Assembly (NCBI RefSeq): GCF_964355755.1
Contig: NC_092671.1
Location: forward strand, 39,883,304-39,947,303
Length of the DNA stretch: 64,000 bases
Reading direction: 5' to 3'
From: Antedon mediterranea
Taxonomy: Eukaryota > Echinodermata > Crinoidea > Comatulida > Antedonidae
Under the pieces are notes generated by a model. That model was not told the origin of the DNA. It saw only the letters and a program-made list of their open reading frames with translations, and did not search any database. Both the position numbers and the translations under genes were made by a program. Positions 21,101 through 64,000 of this stretch are shown piece after piece (the stretch's first letter is position 1; each line of letters opens with the position of its first letter).

Positions 21101-23095
21101 TTTTAAAATGTTTAAGATCTTAATTCTTTCAGAATACTGTACATACAAAGAAACCATTAGGACAACTGCATGTTAAGTAATGAAGCCTTTTTGTTAAGAT
21201 GTCCTTGTGCAAATTTAGCAATCTAAACGCAGCATTTGTCAATCAATTTCTCAGAATATTTTTAATTATTTTATTGAATATTTAAACAAATACTACCTAC
21301 TGGAAATCTTAAGCTCTGTCTACACTATCAAACTAGAAAAAAGTGTGTGCCCAAACATGGAAGTGATATACACAAATATGGTAGTGGTATGACACCATCA
21401 TGTCCATATTTGGGAACATCACATTTGTTTTTTGTCACATACAGTTTGATAGTTTAGACACTGGCTTATAAATTGTGTCTGACTTACTGCGTTTTCACTT
21501 TATTTGTTTCTTTATCTGATGTTGGAGATGGGATAATTTTAGAATTGCATTCTGTGATGTCACTACGGAACTGAAGATAAGCACTGAAATTAAATGCACA
21601 ACATCATAAACAATAATAGTAAAGTAATACGATTGTTAAGTTTGTACTTATTTTCAATATAGTAAGATGCCAGTTTAGACCAGAAAACCTAACCACATAA
21701 TTGTATAATGCTACAATAAGTATACAACTTATGTATTCACATATGTAATGTTGTATTTATTCAAAATGCAGTCACACAAGAATGAGTACAGCTCTGTCTA
21801 CACTATAAAACTTTATGTGACAACAAAATGTCACATTAAGTGTGATAGTGAAGACAGAGCTTAATGCTACGATAAGTATACAGTAACTATTTATTCACAT
21901 ATTTAATGTTATATTTATTTTAAAAAAACATTGCAGTCACACAACAGAATGAGTAAAATATGAATAAAATCATTAGAAGTATACAATAATGTTTATATAA
22001 ACACAAGAGGCAAAGAACATTAATTCTAAACCGCCGACCCGGTGATATACTGAAAGTTTATTAATTAATTTGAGATGACAAGATGAAGAAATCTATAAGA
22101 ATGAGAAAAAGTCGCCCCAACCTAGATTCAAACCAGGAACCTTCTGCTTGATATGCAGATGTCCTAACTATTAGACCACTAGGGCTTTCATGGTATTGTT
22201 TACACCTGATTGGATAGCAACTCTGTAACACTCTCTGCGTTTTATGGCATAAATATAAATATATAATAATTGCACTGTTTTGTGTACCTTTCTAAGCGAT
22301 GGTATTTCTTCAACCTACGTCTTGCCTTTGTGTTTCTTGTTACTTGTGTACTAAGAGGGATGAACTTATTCTGGGGAAAATCTTGTTTTGATGTGTACAT
22401 AAAATCACGATGAACAGTGGGCAAGAGGGCGGTAGACAAAAACGAAAATTGGTTCAAGTTGCTGCGTGATATCAAACCTTCCAGGATTATACATCGCTAC
22501 AAAAAATAAGAATTTAAATCACATTTGCTCTATAAAGCTATGTGTACACTTTCAAACTTTATGTGATATAATGCAATGCGCTCATCATTATCACTACCAT
22601 ATTTGGGCACAAACTAGTTTGAAAGTGTAAACTCAAAGGCTCAAGAATACTTATTAAATAATCAAATATGTATTTAGGATTACCATATGAAAATGCATAA
22701 AGATACAAAGTATATAAAAAATAAAATATGAATAAAAACTATTATTTCTAGATATTTATATTTCTCTATATTTCAGCTTGCAAACTGTAGGATTTCCCTT
22801 CTTACTAGTTTGCCTAACAAGAAATTTTAATTATTACTAATAAGAAATTGAAATATTATAATATTGAAACATCAAATGGTTTCCGAGTCAGGATTTAAGA
22901 GAATAAAAAAAATCACACCTGATCGTGAGACCAGCCATCTATCCACAGAAGTAGATGATCAAGCTGCCTTTCATACTCTAGCTTATCCGTTGTTAATCTT
23001 ATAACATCATCTTTACATTCATCGACATCACCATTCTTATATAGTTTTTGACCAGAAAATGATTTACACAAATTATGTATTGTCGGTTGTTCCAT
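15153..23095 (-). CDS. F-box/WD40-repeat protein (SCF substrate receptor), complete
   Basis: Such proteins recruit substrates to SCF ubiquitin ligases. Fifteen coding exons with GT-AG borders: 23095-22919, 22496-22288, 21583-21488, 20856-20719, 20272-20038, 19254-19164, 18857-18775, 18585-18414, 18308-18188, 18027-17910, 17274-17089, 16579-16457, 16025-15841, 15715-15605, 15282-15153. All phases close and give 724 residues. A helical region (about 35-85, WIDGWSHDQRCIILEGLI) resembles the N-terminus of FBXO16. A low-complexity linker follows. The F-box is at about 344-395; YQDFISLLPKNI and LEPKSLLIAAQV recall FBXW7/Cdc4. Residues 437-724 form seven WD repeats, each with an SGSxDxTIKIWD-like end, enough for a full propeller. 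Exon 5 carries an in-frame 21-residue duplication. Introns hold several MITE-A copies, a LINE end and a SINE. The vertebrate orthologue is unresolved (FBXW7-, FBXW2- and FBXW10-like features are mixed). The start is the first ATG of exon 1; an upstream exon is not excluded. Confidence 0.92.
15311..15427. mobile_element. MITE family A copy 1 (3'-truncated palindrome)
   Basis: Left end gtgtctacactatcaaacta, core gtgatgtgcccaaatatggt and gacatcatcatgtcc, ending at gggcacatcacagggctttaa; the outer right arm is missing. It lies in the last intron of the F-box/WD gene. Confidence 0.85.
16164..16290. mobile_element. MITE family A copy 2
   Basis: Terminal inverted repeats ctctgtctatactatcaaac and tttgatagtgtagacagagc; core with cccaaatatggtagtgatat and the central palindrome atgacatcatcatgtcc. 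Intronic in the F-box/WD gene. Confidence 0.95.
16807..16960. mobile_element. MITE family A copy 3
   Basis: Left arm aagctctgtctacactatca; right arm acataaagtttgacagagct, with an internal deletion of tagtgtagac. Two aaatatggtagtgatat units in the core. Intronic in the F-box/WD gene. Confidence 0.93.
19377..19900 (-). mobile_element. Non-LTR retrotransposon (LINE) 3' end
   Basis: The minus strand encodes about 117 residues matching the C-terminal part of LINE reverse-transcriptase proteins: LLSFYRSVICSVWTYC, a CxSCWAGN block, RRAGKMIGLELPS, ASHPLHKV and the terminal GRLRLLSVKTNRFAKSFIPS. This is the usual tail of L2/CR1/Jockey-like ORF2. It is followed by a short 3' UTR with a gatcaataaaag signal and a (cttat)n tail at 19,377-19,406. 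The 5' part is missing, so it is a truncated, dead copy. It lies between exons 5 and 6 of the F-box/WD gene, in the same orientation. Confidence 0.88.
20398..20450 (+). other. Hammerhead-ribozyme-like motif, probable retroelement remnant
   Basis: CTGATGA occurs at 20,399-20,405 and a variant GTGATGA at 20,413-20,419. After it come a short stem GGGC...GCCC (20,421-20,435), GAAA (20,436-20,439) and a mini-stem AGC-TTT-GCT ending in A. That order is the hammerhead core. No clear stem I is visible, and the partial repetition of the 5' box suggests decay. Activity is unproven. Confidence 0.35.
20477..20605. repeat. Tandem duplication, about 67 bp
   Basis: Two adjacent copies of a unit containing tgtatctccattgagatcca and gccactgatacccacagcat, in the intron between exons 4 and 5 of the F-box/WD gene, next to the hammerhead-like motif. 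Confidence 0.92.
21311..21466. mobile_element. MITE family A copy 4
   Basis: Left arm aagctctgtctacactatca; right arm cacatacagtttgatagttt ending in agacactggctta (decayed). Central caccatcatgtccatatttg. Intronic in the F-box/WD gene. Confidence 0.92.
21790..21862. mobile_element. MITE family A copy 5 (short, internally deleted)
   Basis: Only the two arms remain: agctctgtctacactataaa and gtgatagtgaagacagagct, joined through tttatgtgacaacaaaatgtcac. It would fold into a compact hairpin. Intronic in the F-box/WD gene. Confidence 0.9.
22020..22185 (-). mobile_element. tRNA-derived SINE (tRNA-Glu-like head), copy 1
   Basis: On the minus strand the head (22,185-22,114) resembles a tRNA: GCCCTAGTGGTCTAATAGTT (A box), a TCTGC/GCAGA anticodon stem, and B box GGTTTGAATCTAGG closing with GGTTGGGGC. 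The loop would read ATC and the acceptor has wobble pairs, so a working tRNA is unlikely. A body follows with TCTCAAATTAATTAAT and TTTCAGTATATCACCGGG. The same body follows a second head at 61,786-61,900, which proves a dispersed family. It lies between exons 2 and 3 of the F-box/WD gene. Confidence 0.85.
22534..22638. mobile_element. MITE family A copy 6 (diverged)
   Basis: Left arm aaagctatgtgtacactttc, right arm aaactagtttgaaagtgtaa, core tatcactaccatatttgggc. Both arms carry the same change (actatc to actttc), so the palindrome is preserved despite divergence. Confidence 0.85.
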
Positions 23096-35624: not shown

Positions 35625-36466
<842 letters not shown>

Positions 36467-36475
36467 CCTGTAATA

Positions 36476-36677
36476 ATGGCAACAAAGGTAGGTACAAATA
36501 AATAATGTTTGCCACCTTTACTGAACATTTTTACATAATAATAATTGTACATTGAATTTAGTGTGAACAAAACAAATTACATTTTTAAAAATATTTATCT
36601 TTCAGACATATTGGACAAGACCACTGAACTCTCCTGACAATGAAACACCATTTTACGGATGGAATTGGAACAAATAA
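36476..36677 (+). CDS. Candidate 27-codon second ORF on the TMEM258 transcript
   Basis: Ten bases after the TMEM258 stop codon, an ATG in good context (taataATGG) opens a frame: ATG GCA ACA AAG, then a strong donor GTAGGT (36,488). The acceptor ttcag at 36,601-36,605 continues it in phase 0 for 23 more codons to TAA at 36,675-36,677. The predicted peptide has 27 residues, begins MATKTYWTRPLNS and ends in an aromatic, hydrophilic YGWNWNK. It has no membrane helix or signal peptide, and I recognise no family. An intron splitting a frame cleanly in phase 0 is unexpected for a plain 3' UTR. The alternative is that the exon is simply 3' UTR and the frame is chance. An AATAAA overlaps the stop codon. 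Confidence 0.45.
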
Positions 36678-37691
36678 ATTTTACTGTTGTTACTTTAATA
36701 TACTGTTATTTCATTATTTTATTTAACATTTTTGGCTGTTTAGAATTTGTGATCATTTTCACAACATTGTAGTTTGGGCAATACAGAATCATGGTTAGAA
36801 TTTCTTAAATGTTGTGTATATGTATGAAAGTGAGGAAGAAAAATAAAAACAAATTTAAATTACATGCTATCATTTGATTGTTTATATTGAATACTTTTGA
36901 CAAATGAGTCACAAAGATACATGACATCAGTAATACTGTAAGATAATAATGATTACGCACATATCCACAAAAGTGCTCAAGGCGCTTGTGAAAAACTATG
37001 AAACAAATTAACCTTAAACCTAAATACAATTGATAAATTTGAAAAAAAACCAAAAAAAATAAACAAGACCAAGATAAATTCATCAATTTTTTATTTTAAT
37101 TCTGAGCACTATCAACATAATCTACAAATTGCTAACAGAAATCACATCAGTACAAAACAAGAGCTTGCCCATCTATAACATTCAAAGCCTCTAAAGCAGG
37201 CCACACTACAGCGTACAATAACATCAATTTTATCTGCTGTTGTAAATTAAAATTGATAAATTATTGGCTCACAAAATGTACATTTGGCACAAAAGTATAA
37301 AAATGCAAGAAATTAAATAAAATATTTCAGGTGTAGAATTAGGTGGCATGACGAAAAATAAACTGCCAATTGACTCCAGTTTGCCAAAGAATTGCCAGTA
37401 TTACAGTATAATTTTATATTTAGCATATTTATACCTGCCAGAATATCTGTGCGCAAGAAAATGTTTTAACCTGTATTTGATTGCAAGATTTTTATTATAT
37501 TTATCAAATGCATGCTTGCAATGAAGCACACAATATATCCAGTAGTTAAGGATGTTCACGAACTCTACAGTATGAGTAACATCTACTGTACCTGCATTAT
37601 GCAATAGATATTGTGCAAGTTGAGGAGTGTGAAATAGTAAAACATTTATACAATGTATAAGCAGCAAATGGCTCAGCTTGTAAGATACAGT
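36678..37691. other. Convergent 3' regions of TMEM258 and CCT2
   Basis: About 1 kb without coding sequence between two genes ending towards each other. On the minus strand an AATAAA-like signal near 37,087-37,095 could end the CCT2 transcript, giving a 3' UTR of about 600 bases. On the plus strand aataaatttt at 36,673 could serve TMEM258. No repeat family is recognised. Confidence 0.5.
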
Positions 37692-40600
37692 TCAATGACA
37701 TTGATCTGACCCTCTTTGTCTGAAATAAAAGAAACAAGTATGAGAAGAGCAAGTAATACACTGCAGCACTAGGCAGAGAACCATTACAAGTTCACAGGAA
37801 AAATAAAAAAAAATAGACATGGATCTTACAAAATAAAGATTTTCTGTGGTTGTAAGTCCCATTACAAAATAACAAAAAATGACAACGTAATAAAAACATA
37901 AGAGTGTATGACATTGACGCCTGGAGCTAGAATCCATTATTTCAACAAAATGTAAAACCAATTGTTATTCAATTACCAACAATGCTCTTACCTTGGCGCT
38001 GACTTTATGATGTCATCAACTCTAAGTATCATCTCAGCCGCTTCAGAAGCACTGATCAGAATTTGACGTTTCACAAGGAATGATTCTGTGATCCCTAACT
38101 CTATCATATCTCCAATTTCACCTTGCTTCATATCTGTAAAAATGAACATGATTTGCTATTATTAAAATTACTTTAATAGTTTGATAAACGTTCTTATTAG
38201 AAGACATTCCCTATAATTAATTTTCTTTCTACTAAAGTACTATTATTTACCTAAGCCAGTAGTGGACTTTCCTTGGTTATGTGCTGCCCTCAACTCAGCT
38301 ACTAACGCAGCACTGTCGTAACCAGCATTATCTGCAATAATTTTTGGAAGCTAAAAACAAAAATTTTAATATAAATTTTATAAAAAAAACATTTTAAAGT
38401 CACCTGGTTTTTATAATCATTTTTCACCAAGAGGATAATTAAGAACATTTATAACTCACTTGTTGAAGAGCTCGTGCAAAAGCTTCCATTGCGACAGATT
38501 CTTTGCCTGGTGTTTTAGCTGCCAGATTCGTCACAGCGTTTGCCATCAACATTTCAGAACAACCTGAACACAATCAAAGAATGTTTATTAACAAATTATG
38601 TATAAATCAAAAGAATCAGAGAAACTAACTAAACTTCTTTAGAATTTCTAAATATTCATTACTTTTTGTTGAAAAATCGCAATAAATGTGATTATTTGTT
38701 GACACTGCAAGCAGCAATACCAATAATGAAACTCACCTCCACCATACACTATCTTGGTCTCCTTCACAGTTTGTGAAAGTACACAGAGGGCATCATGTAA
38801 GGATCGATCTACTTCATCAAGAATCTGTTGTGTAGCTCCACGGATTACAATGGTACAGGCTTCACCTAGTTTCACACCAGAGAACTTGAGTAACTTGTCT
38901 TCACCTGTAAATAAAGTAGGGTTGCCCTTGCATTACAATCTTACTACACACTCAATGGTAAAGGTCCCATATTTAATTCTGAACATAGGGTAATGAGCTG
39001 CTAGGAGCTCATTTTACTAAGCTTCTGCATTATGTGTTAGGGTGGCCAGTTCCTTTCCATGCCGCCTTGTCCTCCCTAGTATTTTCAACCAGGTACAGCC
39101 GAGTAGACTGGGAGTTGTCGGAAACTGAACCCAGGTCTCTCTCTTTTATCTTGTATTTTTAATCTGTTGTAATACTGCACGTTTTTAAATTGTTGCAATA
39201 TTGTTGTTTTAATCTACCAAGCAAAGTGAATTTCCATTTTTATGGACAAATAAAATTTCTTGAATCTTGAATCTTGACTTCCTAACTCCCATACTCCATG
39301 ATTGATACAAAATAAAAAAAGATTACTCACCGATCATAATCTCTTCAATGAGGTCACACTGACCAATCCGAACCTTTTCTGGATGGTCAAAGGTTGAGAC
39401 GATCTCACCACCAAGTACTAAAGCAAGTCTTTCAACTCCTTCAAAGTCTGCATGCTCTATCGCCATGACACCAGCATCAGCAAATAGTTGCTCTGGATAG
39501 TTGTAAATCAATTGTCTGTAAAATACATTGACAGATTATAAAGTTATCGTTTCAATAATTTATATCTAATTATATTTAAAATATAGAATAAGAAAATCTA
39601 AAAAATAATAACCTATTAATAAAGCATGTGATGTCATGTTTAAGTATCTTGTTCACTTTTTCTTTCATCTTCTCTTTCTCAGCAAGCTCAATTTCAGCTA
39701 CTTTAGCAGTTGAGTCTACTCTCACACGAGAACCAAACACCTATAAACAATAGTATAATCAAAGTATTAAATAGTATCAATGTTAACCTCAGGTCATGCA
39801 TGTTGTTACAAAAAAAGTGCACTTGACGACATGGGAACCCCAAACTTTTCGAAATTTACAATGGAAAAGATATGATATTTGGTTCAATTTCATACTAATT
39901 AAGTCCACTCACTTTAATTTTATCAGCGTCCATTGATGTGTTAGCAATTAGGACTTTAGCATTCTCTATTCTCTTTGGTTGATTCACGCCAATCTTCTTG
40001 TCAAGAAGGAACCCCTCATCTAGGTAAGAATCAGTCATGTTACCCCCTAGCTTCTTGATTATTTGAATAGCTTGAAGATCAGTCTTTCCTTTAAGTCTAA
40101 GTACAGCATCAACCGCCAACTTGGAGAAAAAGTCACGATCTTGCCAAACTAGTTTAGAACTCAACGTTGTCTTTGCAATATTCATTAAATCTAATTTAAA
40201 TTTCTCTGGGTCATCACTGTAAATGTAAAACAAGTTAATTAATTTCATTCTGAAACTAAAACTCTGTCTACACTATCAAACTAGTTTTACAAAAAAAGTG
40301 TGATTTGCCCAAATATGGTAGTGATGTACCCAAATATGGTAGTGATATGACATCATGATGTCCATATATGGGCATATCACATTTAAAGTTTGATAGTGTA
40401 GACAAGGCTCAATACAGTTCAGACATCCAATTTCCGGAGTTTATATTGTTCAAAGTCAGTTCCTCCATTTTATTGAGTGACTTTCAAAATCAGGACAAAG
40501 AGAATAACAAAGAATGAAGAAGATGAAGACGACCAATGAATCATGTTGAAAACTTAAAATTACACAAACTTTACTACAAAATAACAGTGGATATATCTCA

Positions 40601-42804
40601 TTTAGTATACTGACCCGTGATCTTGTGTAGATTCTCTCAACACCCTTCTTGCTTCGTCTGCAGCTTTTCTCCAGCCTGCTATAATGGTCTGAGGGTGGAT
40701 ATTTTGGTCTACAAGTTGTTCAGCTTCCTGATAACGATAATAATAACTTGATTAATTACTATATTTAAATAGCTAAACTTAGTCATTTAATTGTTGACCT
40801 TAAGCAGAATGCAGTACACAATGTAAAGTAAAAAGGGTATTTAGTGAGACTCCTGATAGTTGGAATTGTTTGGAATAAACATATTGTAAACATAAATATC
40901 TAAACTTGGTCAATTGATTGAAAAGGTATTTGGTAAGATAGTTTGTTTTGGAATTGCTTGGATATAAGGATATTGTAAACATAAACTAATTTAAATGATG
41001 CTGACCCTTAGAAGTTCACAGGCAAGGACAGTGACTGAAGTGGTACCATCTCCTACCTCATCATCTTGTACTTTACTTATCTCTGTTTAAATAGAATAGA
41101 TCTTTAAAAATTTAACATACAAATATTATCATTAAAGTAAAATAAGATTCTGGTTTTTTTTTTAAAGAATAAATTCAATTCAATACTATTACACAAACAA
41201 AACATGTGTTTAATAAGAACAGACGTGTAAGCCTTGGTATAAAGTAATTTAATGATTTATTAAGAAAATATGTATCATTTGTGGAAAATCAATAAAAAAA
41301 AAAACAAGTACTGTATAGATTGGTTAATCTGTTGCCCTTCCACCAGATATTTAATGTGTTAAAACCACTTTTTTCAAAAACTTACCACACAAGATTTTAG
41401 CTGCTGGGTTATCAACCCCTATAGACCTCAAAATGGTTGCACCATCATTTGTCACCGTCATTGGACTATTTGGATCCATTGGTTGAAGAATTTTATCCTA
41501 AAAAGTAAAATAAATGTTTTTAAATCATTTTGTCTAATATTAATACAATTTTAAGCTGAATAATAATTACAGTTAAGCTCTGTCTACACTATCAAACTTG
41601 ATGTGACAATAAATGTGATGTGCCCATATATGGATATGATGATGTCATATCACTACCATATTTGGCCATATCACTACCATATTTGGGCATATCACTACAA
41701 TATTTGGGCATATTATTACCATATTTTCCTGTATAAATGTCTTACTTCTAAGTTTGATTGTAATCTTGTTTCGTTGTTTTATTTTAATGTTCCTGTTCGT
41801 AATCTTCATAGTAAACCCTTTCTTCATGTTAAATTTTCTCGTGTCAATGTTTGTAAAAATGGTATTTTCTGTAGACTCTCGTCTTCGTACAATTCATGTC
41901 TTTTAAAAAATAATTCTTTAGATATCTTTAACTGTAATTTCTCTCAATTTAAATGTATTATTAATGAAATTATTTAAATAATCTTATTTACATTTTTGTA
42001 TATATTTGCATTGGCTTATATTTATAGTTTAGTTATTTTATTTTCAACCTGTTATTGGTGTTTTACACTGTTGGCTTGAAATAAAGAATAAAGAATATTT
42101 GGGCACATCACACTTTTTTGTCAAACTAGTTTGATGTTGTAGATAGAGCTATACAGTAGAGAATGATGAATTATTTGTTACCATTCCTTTGGGACCTAGA
42201 GTACTCTTGATGAGGTCGCCAATTGCAATTGCACCTATAAAAGAGGACATACGAGCCGTCTCAGCCTTCTCCTCCTCGGCTCCATAATTCAAAATCTGAA
42301 CTGGTTGTAACGACACCTAAAAAAAATATATTTTATATTATTACCTTTCAAAAAAAGGAAATACATTAATCATTATTATTATTAATGTGAACGTTATTCA
42401 TAATATACTCGACATAGGCCTAGTAGGCTTTTAGGCCTAGGATTTTGATTTCTTTTTTTTTTTTTAACATTCCATTGGTGGCATTATGTAGGCCTATTAC
42501 AACAAGAATAATAATATTTCGAATTAATAAATATAGTACGTCCGCCTCACGCCCGGCCGCTTAATACACATAATAAGGGCGAAGCGACTTCGTCGGGTTC
42601 ATGACGGATCAACCAGGGTCTGACTGCACGGAACAGTCACAGACAGTACACACACACCCGCCCGGCTGCACCCACAACCACATCACGTTGTTGGTATGGT
42701 TCTGATATCTGTTTAGCTCACTTCTATATACAGCCTTTTTCTAGAAATAATACAGATTAAACATGCCTTAAATAATTTTAACAAAAATTCATTTAACATA
42801 CCAT
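37692..42804 (-). CDS. CCT2: T-complex protein 1 subunit beta (CCT2), complete
   Basis: CCT2 is one of eight subunits of the cytosolic TRiC/CCT chaperonin, which folds actin, tubulin and WD40 proteins using ATP. Thirteen coding exons: 42804-42802 (ATG only), 42316-42182, 41497-41386, 41082-41006, 40727-40615, 40216-39913, 39740-39613, 39515-39331, 38904-38737, 38563-38460, 38350-38251, 38133-37992, 37719-37692. The phases close to give 532 residues (human 535). Group II chaperonin landmarks are in place: KSTLGPKGM (38-46), TNDGAT (62-67), the catalytic GDGTT (94-98), KKLGG and [15 protein letters not shown] in the apical domain, [27 protein letters not shown], and DNAGYDS near the nucleotide site. 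The C-terminus ([11 protein letters not shown]) is divergent, as is usual for that tail. The donor of exon 39740-39613 is an atypical GTTATT. Introns carry two MITE-A copies, one with a nested LINE end, plus a retroelement-like tail near 39.1-39.3 kb. Confidence 0.98.
39010..39290 (+). mobile_element. Possible non-LTR element 3' end
   Basis: The end reads gtgaatttccatttttatgg, acaaataaaatttc and then a (ttgaatc)n tail. It resembles the 3' end of the LINE at 19.4 kb (gaatttcctttttgagg, aataaaag, simple-repeat tail). No coding sequence is visible. It lies between CCT2 exons 8 and 9, antisense to the gene. Confidence 0.5.
40258..40410. mobile_element. MITE family A copy 10
   Basis: Left arm aaactctgtctacactatca, right arm aaagtttgatagtgtagaca then aggctc; the core has two facing cccaaatatggtagtgat units and the centre gacatcatgatgtcc. 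Intronic in CCT2. Confidence 0.94.
41575..42150. mobile_element. MITE family A copy 11, expanded core, interrupted by a LINE end
   Basis: The outer arms are intact (taagctctgtctacactatc and actagtttgatgttgtagat, then agagct). The core has about four tandem copies of a 21-bp unit catatcactaccatatttgg. The element is split at 41,727-42,094 by another insertion; the flanking word atattt occurs on both sides (41,721-41,726 and 42,095-42,100). Intronic in CCT2. Confidence 0.92.
41727..42094 (+). mobile_element. LINE 3' end nested inside MITE-A copy 11
   Basis: The insert opens in frame and encodes about 75 residues ([14 protein letters not shown], then [14 protein letters not shown] and [11 protein letters not shown]) before a stop at about 41,977. 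This spacing of conserved Arg, Tyr-Asn and a final FK motif resembles the last part of LINE ORF2. It is followed by a 3' UTR and an (aataaag)n tail, and flanked by a 6-bp repeat atattt that could be the target-site duplication. The LINE family is not identified. Confidence 0.65.
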
Positions 42805-49717: not shown

Positions 49718-50446
49718 TCACGGGCGTTGTAACGGTCTTTTGCAGCGATTCCGATGATGTCGAACTCGGTGCGACTTGGCCATAAGTCGCAATGCGCAGT
49801 CGCACGAACTATTAATTGCAATCCAATTCCACCCTTCTTGTCCTTGTTTATTTCTAACAATGGCGTAAACAAACGATTCTTTAGTAATACACTCTGAACT
49901 GTAATACGTTGCATCGATCCCTCTACATCCGTTTTTATTTCCTTTCTTCGAACAAGAAGTCTCGTAGAAAAATTGCGACGTGTGGCCTTTCCCGCCAAAA
50001 GTTTTAATGTGTTCCACAACAGTAACATTTTCGCCATAATACGACATGGCCCATTTCTTACGCGTCCATGTTGTAGACTGATCACATACTGACAATAATT
50101 CAGCGCTGCTTCTTCGCTTTCGACTATGTACTGTTGAATTTAAATTGTTGTCCATTTCCGGTGTTAAATAAGCCCGTGGGGGCCTGTCCGGTATTGAATC
50201 TGAAAAGAACGTTCGTTCAGACATTCTGTTTATTTCATTCAAATCATATATTAAATTCGAAACGCTTCCCTTTAATTGATTGTCTGTATTTAGTCTTTGG
50301 TGATTTGTAAATTGCGAAATCGTGTTTTGTGAGCGGTCCATTACATCCAACTCCAATTTGCTTGGAAACGCCAGGCAATTTGATATCAACACAAACATAA
50401 GGTCAAAGGTTAGAAGTTCAAGGGTTAAAACCCCGGCCATTAATAT
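49718..50446 (-). CDS. Neurotrophin (NGF/BDNF-family ligand)
   Basis: Neurotrophins are secreted dimeric cystine-knot growth factors acting on Trk and p75-type receptors. The ATG at 50,438-50,440 opens 240 codons, ending at 49,718. A splice acceptor (TTTTCTTTTCAG) ends six bases before the ATG, so the whole protein is in one coding exon preceded by at least one 5' noncoding exon, as in vertebrate neurotrophin genes. Residues 1-24 form a signal peptide. A prodomain follows, with sites NST (101) and the furin site RKRR (107-110). The mature domain has the six knot cysteines at 119, 163, 172, 184, 213 and 215, in NGF-like contexts (SVCD, FFYETSC, GCRGID, SEC, SCDC), with NVT (138) as a possible glycosylation site. 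After the last pair comes an Arg/His-rich tail (221-240) with an extra Cys (233), which vertebrate members lack. The prodomain is shorter than in BDNF. The family is certain; one-to-one orthology to NGF, BDNF, NT3 or NT4 is not expected. Confidence 0.94.
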   Translation of the reverse strand: MLMAGVLTLELLTFDLMFVLISNCLAFPSKLELDVMDRSQNTISQFTNHQRLNTDNQLKGSVSNLIYDLNEINRMSERTFFSDSIPDRPPRAYLTPEMDNNLNSTVHSRKRRSSAELLSVCDQSTTWTRKKWAMSYYGENVTVVEHIKTFGGKGHTSQFFYETSCSKKGNKNGCRGIDATYYSSECITKESFVYAIVRNKQGQEGWNWIAINSSCDCALRLMAKSHRVRHHRNRCKRPLQRP

Positions 50447-50914
50447 CTGAAAAGAAAAAGAAAAACATTGTCAATTTATTTTCATAATTAATTATTAGTT
50501 ATTACGTAGGCACTTATTTTTAAATATTTCCACTGTTTTCGCAATGTTAAAAGTTGGACATGAAGAAAAAGCACAAATAGTATAAATTCTGGACCATTTT
50601 ATAGACGAACATTTAAAGGAAATTATTATGAATATGATAAAATAAAGTTTTAATGTTGTAATTATTCTATAGAAACATATTAGTTGTATATTGCACCTGT
50701 TTTGAAGTCTAGACAGAACGTCGCTTTACATTATTCCTATGGCTTATCTCACAAAGTAGCTACTCGCTATCTCTACACACACACTCACAATACTAACGAA
50801 AGCTAACGACTTTAGAGAATAGAAATAACACGCTAACAATTGTACATGATCGTCGCCACTCTGTGTTATTGTGGTTTGACTAACGGAATCTGATTGATAT
50901 CTAAATTGCCTCTA

Positions 50915-61900: not shown

Positions 61901-62511
61901 CCGTACCTGATGTGTTTATATACTCATATCAGTGTATATGAATTTAATCCTGGTCGGAAGTGAAATAAATCCCGACTTTGAAAGCCCATCTCTCCTTCAA
62001 CCCTGAATGTGCTAATATATAAATGGGTGATTTCGAATCTTCTACGTGGCCTATGTTGAAGTACGTCACAGTAATGTTGTTGGATACAATATAATAATAA
62101 TAGTAAATACAATATATATAATAATAATAGTAAATACCAGAAGAGCAACGAGCCGGTTTTAATGGCGACACGGAGTCAGGAGGAGAAGTAATTAACGAAC
62201 ATCAATATCAACGGAATTCAATAATCACGTCACATTGAAGTGAAAAGCATCTTGGTCTATTCTATGAAATGTGTGAAAATATGGACGGTTGGTTGTCTAA
62301 GGCAATCTGTTGATATAGCATCTCACGCAGAAACAGACAATACACTGCAGTGTTTACAGTAATTATACAAATTATTATATTAAAAATAAAAAAACCTAAA
62401 TGAGTTTTTGTTTTATGTAATAAATAATTATTGTATTAAATATTATTGTATTCTATTCGCGGACATACGTGGGTCTATACCATTATTCACGAATACAAAA
62501 CTGTATTACCC

Positions 62512-62757
62512 AAAAGGTCTATGTTTAAAGCGTGGACGTAACGCAACGCAAGTGAATTGACCAATCACAAAAGGTCTATGTTTAAAGCGTGGACGTAACG
62601 CAACGCAAGTGAATTGACCAATCACAAAAGGTCTATGTTTAAAGCGTGGACGTAACGCAACGCAAGTGAATTGACCAATCACAGAAGGTCTATGTTTAAA
62701 GCGTGGACGTAACGCAACGCAAGTGAATTGACCAATCACAGAAGGTCTATGTTTAAG
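62512..62757. repeat. 57-bp tandem made from a MITE-B end
   Basis: Four full units and a partial fifth; ggtct recurs at 62,516, 62,573, 62,630, 62,687 and 62,744. Each unit holds tttaaagcgtggacgtaacg, caacgcaagtgaattgacca and atcac, which is the MITE-B left arm without ttcccactag. Because 57 is a multiple of 3, it produces a spurious repetitive open frame on the minus strand. Confidence 0.95.
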
Positions 62758-64000
62758 GTGATCAATTTCGGTTTGTATTATATCCATGCTTTCATTGATG
62801 GATATACTTTTTGGAGAATGTAATATTTTAAGCCAATGTGCACATTAGTGACGTCATAAATAAGAATAAGACAATAATAATAGTTCATTCTTATATAGCG
62901 CTCTACAAGCAAGCTTCTCTAAGCGTTGAACATTATTACCCCAGTCATTTTTTGGATCAAACACGTATGGAAACATACTCCCATAATTCAGCTAGTAACC
63001 AGCGCAAAGTTATGTCTTGATCTAACCGGGTACCCATTTATATACCTGGGTGGAGAGAGGCAAACGTGAGTAAAGTATGTATACCAGTGATGGTAGTGAA
63101 CTGTATCATAGAAATCTGGCACCACCTTACATTTTGTTATCTTCTAAACATAGCACACAACTAAGGAAATATATACAATTGTATACGGTACTTTATTTTG
63201 GTCGTATAGTTAAAATAGAATGATCAGGGAGTCTCTTACTTATGTTTAAAGTGTACTTACCAACTAACAGCAGCAGGCCTACAAACATTCCAATACAACT
63301 TTAACAACATTCCAAAATTATCACAAACAACATTAATGTTCTCTCCAGGTGGCCAACTAAATAACACTAAGGAAAGACAGCGACACGCAGCAGCAAAAAG
63401 TATCAATTCTTTTCATGGCTTTTGTTATAGAAACAATAAGTTATCTAATGAAGCAACTAATTATCTATACACTGTACTCCATCGTGTGGACTGACGAGTT
63501 TGGATGGTATCGACGTTTAGGAGCAAAACGATGCATTCAAAGTCTCAAACGGGATGAACTGATATATATATAATGTAAAACACACAGAGGAACTAAAGGA
63601 TAAGTTTACAAATAGATGACAGAAAATTCGGATACAAACCGTCAAACCGTGAACTTTTCTGAAATTCGGCAGATCGTAAGCGTGCATTAAGAGGACTTGG
63701 TAATCGTTTTAACACCATTGAACCAAGGTCTCGTTTACTATTTAACCTTATTGATTATTTCTTCTATAGACACGAGCAACCTGCATTTTAAACTTAATTT
63801 ATCACAAAATTATGTCAATTAGCGGCTCATATAAGACCTTAACCTTCTAGAATTAAAAAGGTTTACGACACAAATGGTACAAAATTCCACTGCCTTGCGA
63901 ATACCTAATAAGCACTTTTGGAACCGAAAATTACGAAAAGACGAAATATAAAATTAATTTTTTAAAATTCCAATTTAATTCATAGAATTGGAAGCAATAA

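Follow-up and report, generated by a model that had tools for sequence, protein, structure and literature searches.

Animal mRNAs that encode two proteins are known, for example PIGY/PYURF and SNURF/SNRPN. In vertebrates, translated frames downstream of the main stop codon (dORFs) are common, and recruitment of new ribosomes has been proposed for them; a conserved peptide is encoded by only 6 of 1,406 human dORFs (PMC7459409). The locus described here lies in a 64,000-nt stretch of the genome of the crinoid Antedon mediterranea (contig NC_092671.1), referred to below as the window, in which the stop codon of TMEM258 is closely followed by a second short frame (ORF2). ORF2 is an ATG-started 3′ UTR frame separate from the main ORF (36476–36677, spliced) and in this respect is a dORF.

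TMEM258 and the frame beyond its stop codon

Scripted splicing of the window sequence gave a TMEM258 ORF of 80 codons, the product of which scored 108.6 bits against the Pfam family PF05251 (Ost5; cut-off of 27.4) and so belongs to that family. Alignment with human TMEM258 covered 77 residues (E 2.4e-40), and the final residue coincides in the two proteins. TMEM258 (Ost5) is an oligosaccharyltransferase subunit, and its human gene was formerly named C11orf10. The U12-type signature of intron 2 (Table 1) fits the report of human C11orf10 as a minor-intron gene (PMC3728624). Given the Pfam assignment, the human match and the U12-type intron, the upstream gene model predicted from the window is secure.

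Table 1. Window coordinates of the features of TMEM258 and ORF2
Feature	Position	Strand	Details
TMEM258 start codon, end of exon 1	35625..35627	+	donor ATG/GTAAGT; spliced product matches human TMEM258
TMEM258 exon 2, coding	36010..36122	+	spliced protein matches Pfam Ost5 (PF05251), E 1.8e-31
TMEM258 intron 2, U12-type signature	36123..36339	+	donor GTATCCTT; branch-site-like TCCTTAAC close to the AG; sequence reading
TMEM258 exon 3, coding through TAA 36464–36466	36340..36466	+	protein end VGIYV identical to human TMEM258
Spacer CCTGTAATA, TMEM258 stop to ORF2 ATG	36467..36475	+	9 nt; holds ORF2 in the TMEM258 frame
ORF2 first part, ATG GCA ACA AAG (MATK)	36476..36487	+	sequence reading
Predicted U2-type intron	36488..36605	+	118 nt; phase 0 for ORF2; AAG/GTAGGT ... 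TATCTTTCAG/A; PWM scores
Predicted terminal exon with the remainder of ORF2 (TYWTRPLNSPDNETPFYGWNWNK) and its stop TAA 36675–36677	36606..36677	+	23 codons; GC 0.375
Poly(A) signal AATAAA, overlaps the stop of ORF2	36673..36678	+	second AATAAA at 36842

TMEM258 is convergent with a gene for a CCT chaperonin subunit (window ~37997–41089, minus strand; PF00118 exons), which is CCT2-like by reading. Elsewhere in the window are a nerve growth factor family ORF (49718–50470, minus strand; PF00243, E 2e-25), a single open frame of the invertebrate neurotrophin kind, and a tandem repeat in the form of an open frame (62506–62844, minus strand) of repeated units like HRPSVIGQFTCVALRPRFK.

The preliminary description of this DNA had reported an ATG in good context just past the TMEM258 stop, followed by four codons, a GTAGGT donor, an acceptor that keeps phase 0, 23 further codons and a stop. 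All of these elements were found in place, with 9 bases intervening between the TAA and the ATG at 36476, and the reported 21 nt from stop to intron were recovered on counting from the end of the TAA (36466) to the donor (36488). The start context of ORF2 is strong, with A at −3 and G at +4. The spliced product of ORF2 is MATKTYWTRPLNSPDNETPFYGWNWNK, of 27 codons (4 + 23) and ending at the TAA at 36675–36677; segments of this predicted peptide include TYWTR and PLNSPDNETPFYGWNWNK.

The predicted third intron

Splice sites were scored with a generic metazoan PWM, built from typical frequencies entered by hand and not trained on this species, in which the donor at 36488 reached 6.34 (top 0.17% of window GTs) and the acceptor ending at 36605 (TTTCAG) reached 2.48 (top 4.3% of window AGs). 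These were the highest PWM scores in the stretch around the 3′ end of TMEM258. Of 8,634 random noncoding starts, 0 combined an ATG with a donor, an acceptor and a frame when the splice scores were set to those observed (13 of 8,634 did so at looser thresholds), which indicates that the splice signals are non-random. Judged by these signals, the intron at 36488–36605 is very probably real.

Rfam revealed no RNA element in the intron, the sole match in the window being a tRNA elsewhere. This gene (22113–22185, minus strand; 52.7 bits in Rfam) was called by ARAGORN as tRNA-Asp with the anticodon ATC. Such an anticodon is not usual for Asp, and the gene may be a pseudogene or a SINE-like copy.

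The usual limit for nonsense-mediated decay (NMD) is a junction 50–55 nt past the stop codon. Since the predicted junction lies 21 nt after the TMEM258 stop, within this limit, NMD of the spliced mRNA would not be expected. The escape from NMD proposed in the preliminary description is thus soundly argued, but it bears on the stability of the mRNA alone.

Coding signal and possible translation of ORF2

If a real junction 21 nt past the stop is assumed, an ORF of at least 27 codons across it arose in ~3% of simulations (p about 0.03), and in 1.1% when the ORF was also in frame; the length of ORF2 alone is thus only weakly non-random. The GC content of the exon at 36606–36677 is coding-like (0.375 versus 0.22–0.23 in the AT-rich flanks, p about 0.04), and synonymous codon use in ORF2 resembles that of real exons (p about 0.07; 0.067). 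Against a null of noncoding open stretches picked by eye within the window, without annotation, the three TGG codons in 23 of ORF2 correspond to ~0.3% of stretches (p about 0.003), a feature picked after the peptide had been seen, and the total codon log-likelihood is equalled or exceeded by 54% of stretches (p 0.54). The latter score, for which CCT chaperonins served as the training set, carries little weight in this case, because TMEM258 itself also scores negative. Overall, the coding signals are modest and suggestive, are partly correlated through GC and cannot tell a microprotein and an incidental dORF apart.

A phmmer search of the ORF2 peptide against the PDB returned nothing better than E 1 (a single chance match), Pfam assigned the peptide to no family, and tblastn in its own genome recovered only the peptide itself, with no second copy. 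TMEM258 was also used to look for stray eukaryotic contigs among viral and prokaryote contigs, and none turned up; the ORF2 peptide is too short as a query for this purpose. In the literature, TMEM258 was not found paired with bicistronic or dicistronic, and strings from the ORF2 peptide were likewise absent.

The most likely reading of the locus, to which we give an even chance, is a TMEM258 mRNA with a terminal 3′ UTR intron and a dORF that is incidental and may be translated weakly. The mRNA would most likely have a fourth exon, spliced via a short U2-type intron 21 nt past the stop, and the 27-codon frame across the 36487/36606 junction would be a downstream ORF. A fraction of the ribosomes that terminate on TMEM258 may resume 9 nt on, or ribosomes may be newly recruited, to yield a little peptide that is itself probably not under selection. 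The sequence itself shows the frame, the splice signals, the strong start context and the frame shared with TMEM258. From these we infer splicing of the intron, escape of the mRNA from NMD (junction <50 nt from the stop), a low level of any translation and a peptide lacking conserved function. The values obtained for ORF length, GC, synonymous codon use and TGG (Trp) content are weak signals of coding and count against an incidental origin.

These same four observations speak for the main rival, an mRNA that is truly bicistronic in this lineage, in which a ribosome or 40S subunit would restart at the ATG at 36476 after the TAA at 36464 to produce a soluble, Trp/Tyr/Asn-rich microprotein of 27 residues under selection, with the intron placed to escape NMD. 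An essential oligosaccharyltransferase subunit would thereby be coupled to a peptide new to description. The strong start context 9 nt past the stop, the phase-0 predicted intron within the frame and the AATAAA right at the ORF2 stop are also in its favor. We nevertheless regard it as doubtful, and somewhat more so when stop-restart, selection and intron placement are taken jointly. No homologue was found in the PDB, Pfam or the crinoid's own genome. Leaky scanning is disfavored because the spliced mRNA has seven ATGs ahead of ORF2, the strong-context start of TMEM258 among them. The plausible routes to translation of ORF2 would be a restart by ribosomes that have terminated 9 nt upstream, or the recruitment of new ones. 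When the first ORF is 80 codons long and the spacer measures 9 nt, reinitiation is normally inefficient. Given the low base rate of conserved dORF peptides (PMC7459409), the incidental dORF is ranked first, above the selected microprotein and above the two improbable alternatives that follow.

Possible readthrough, a possible unspliced 3′ UTR and known systems

ORF2 lies in the same frame as TMEM258 (offset 252, frame 0), the spacer forming the three codons CCT GTA ATA; this identity of frame was overlooked in the preliminary description and is an addition to it. Because the frame is shared, stop readthrough is an alternative to bicistronic translation. The exon would then encode a C-terminal extension of TMEM258, or be the relic of a formerly longer C terminus, and readthrough of the TAA would yield ...VGIYV*PVIMATKTYWTRPLNSPDNETPFYGWNWNK (the extension beginning PVIMATKTYW). 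Consistent with this, no stop is present between the TAA at 36464 and the ORF2 stop after splicing, and the intron is in phase 0 in the TMEM258 frame. A shared frame is, however, a 1-in-3 chance event, and the stop is UAA followed by CCU, which, unlike UGA-CUA, is not known to be leaky. For these two reasons readthrough is considered a minor, improbable rival, against which it also counts that human TMEM258 ends at the same residue and that no competitive in-phase donor lies upstream of the stop. Splicing round the TMEM258 stop is itself unlikely for want of a strong in-phase donor in exon 3, where the best phase-0 candidate scores −0.58 versus 6.34 at 36488. Joining of exon 2 straight to exon 4 was rejected by reading, since the phases clash (exon 2 ends in phase 2 and exon 4 needs phase 0).

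A continuous 3′ UTR with chance matches to a donor and acceptor, from which only MATKVGTNK* could be read past the TMEM258 stop (as from a transcript retaining 36488–36605), is favored by the moderate acceptor with its A-rich upstream part, but is made unlikely by the rank of the donor, by the absence of the joint configuration from the random starts and by the GC contrast of the exon at 36606–36677.

If ORF2 proves to be conserved, an animal mRNA would offer a clean natural case of termination-reinitiation in which the two frames are short and an intron splits the second, and a glycosylation gene would have an unannotated peptide tied to it. If it does not, the incidental reading would make it another dORF, of interest mainly because its 3′ UTR intron lies within the NMD-safe distance.

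ORF2 resembles the translated 3′ UTR dORFs of Wu et al. (2020) (PMC7459409) in being a short ATG-started frame that shares an mRNA with the main frame and follows its stop, with a peptide without known relatives, and differs from them in spanning a predicted intron and starting 9 nt past the stop. With PIGY/PYURF and SNURF/SNRPN the locus shares the arrangement of two frames on one mRNA, predicted in the present case; those pairs have conserved peptides and protein evidence, whereas ORF2, here as in the comparison with dORFs, is a candidate predicted from sequence. As in functional stop-codon readthrough extensions, the downstream frame stays open in the phase of the main ORF, but ORF2 follows a tight UAA stop, has a well-placed ATG of its own and has no known extended homologue. 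With respect to TMEM258/Ost5 (PF05251), the orthology of the crinoid gene is clear; it has a U12-type intron, and a minor intron is also reported for the human gene. The predicted terminal intron and the downstream frame are additions to this coding part.
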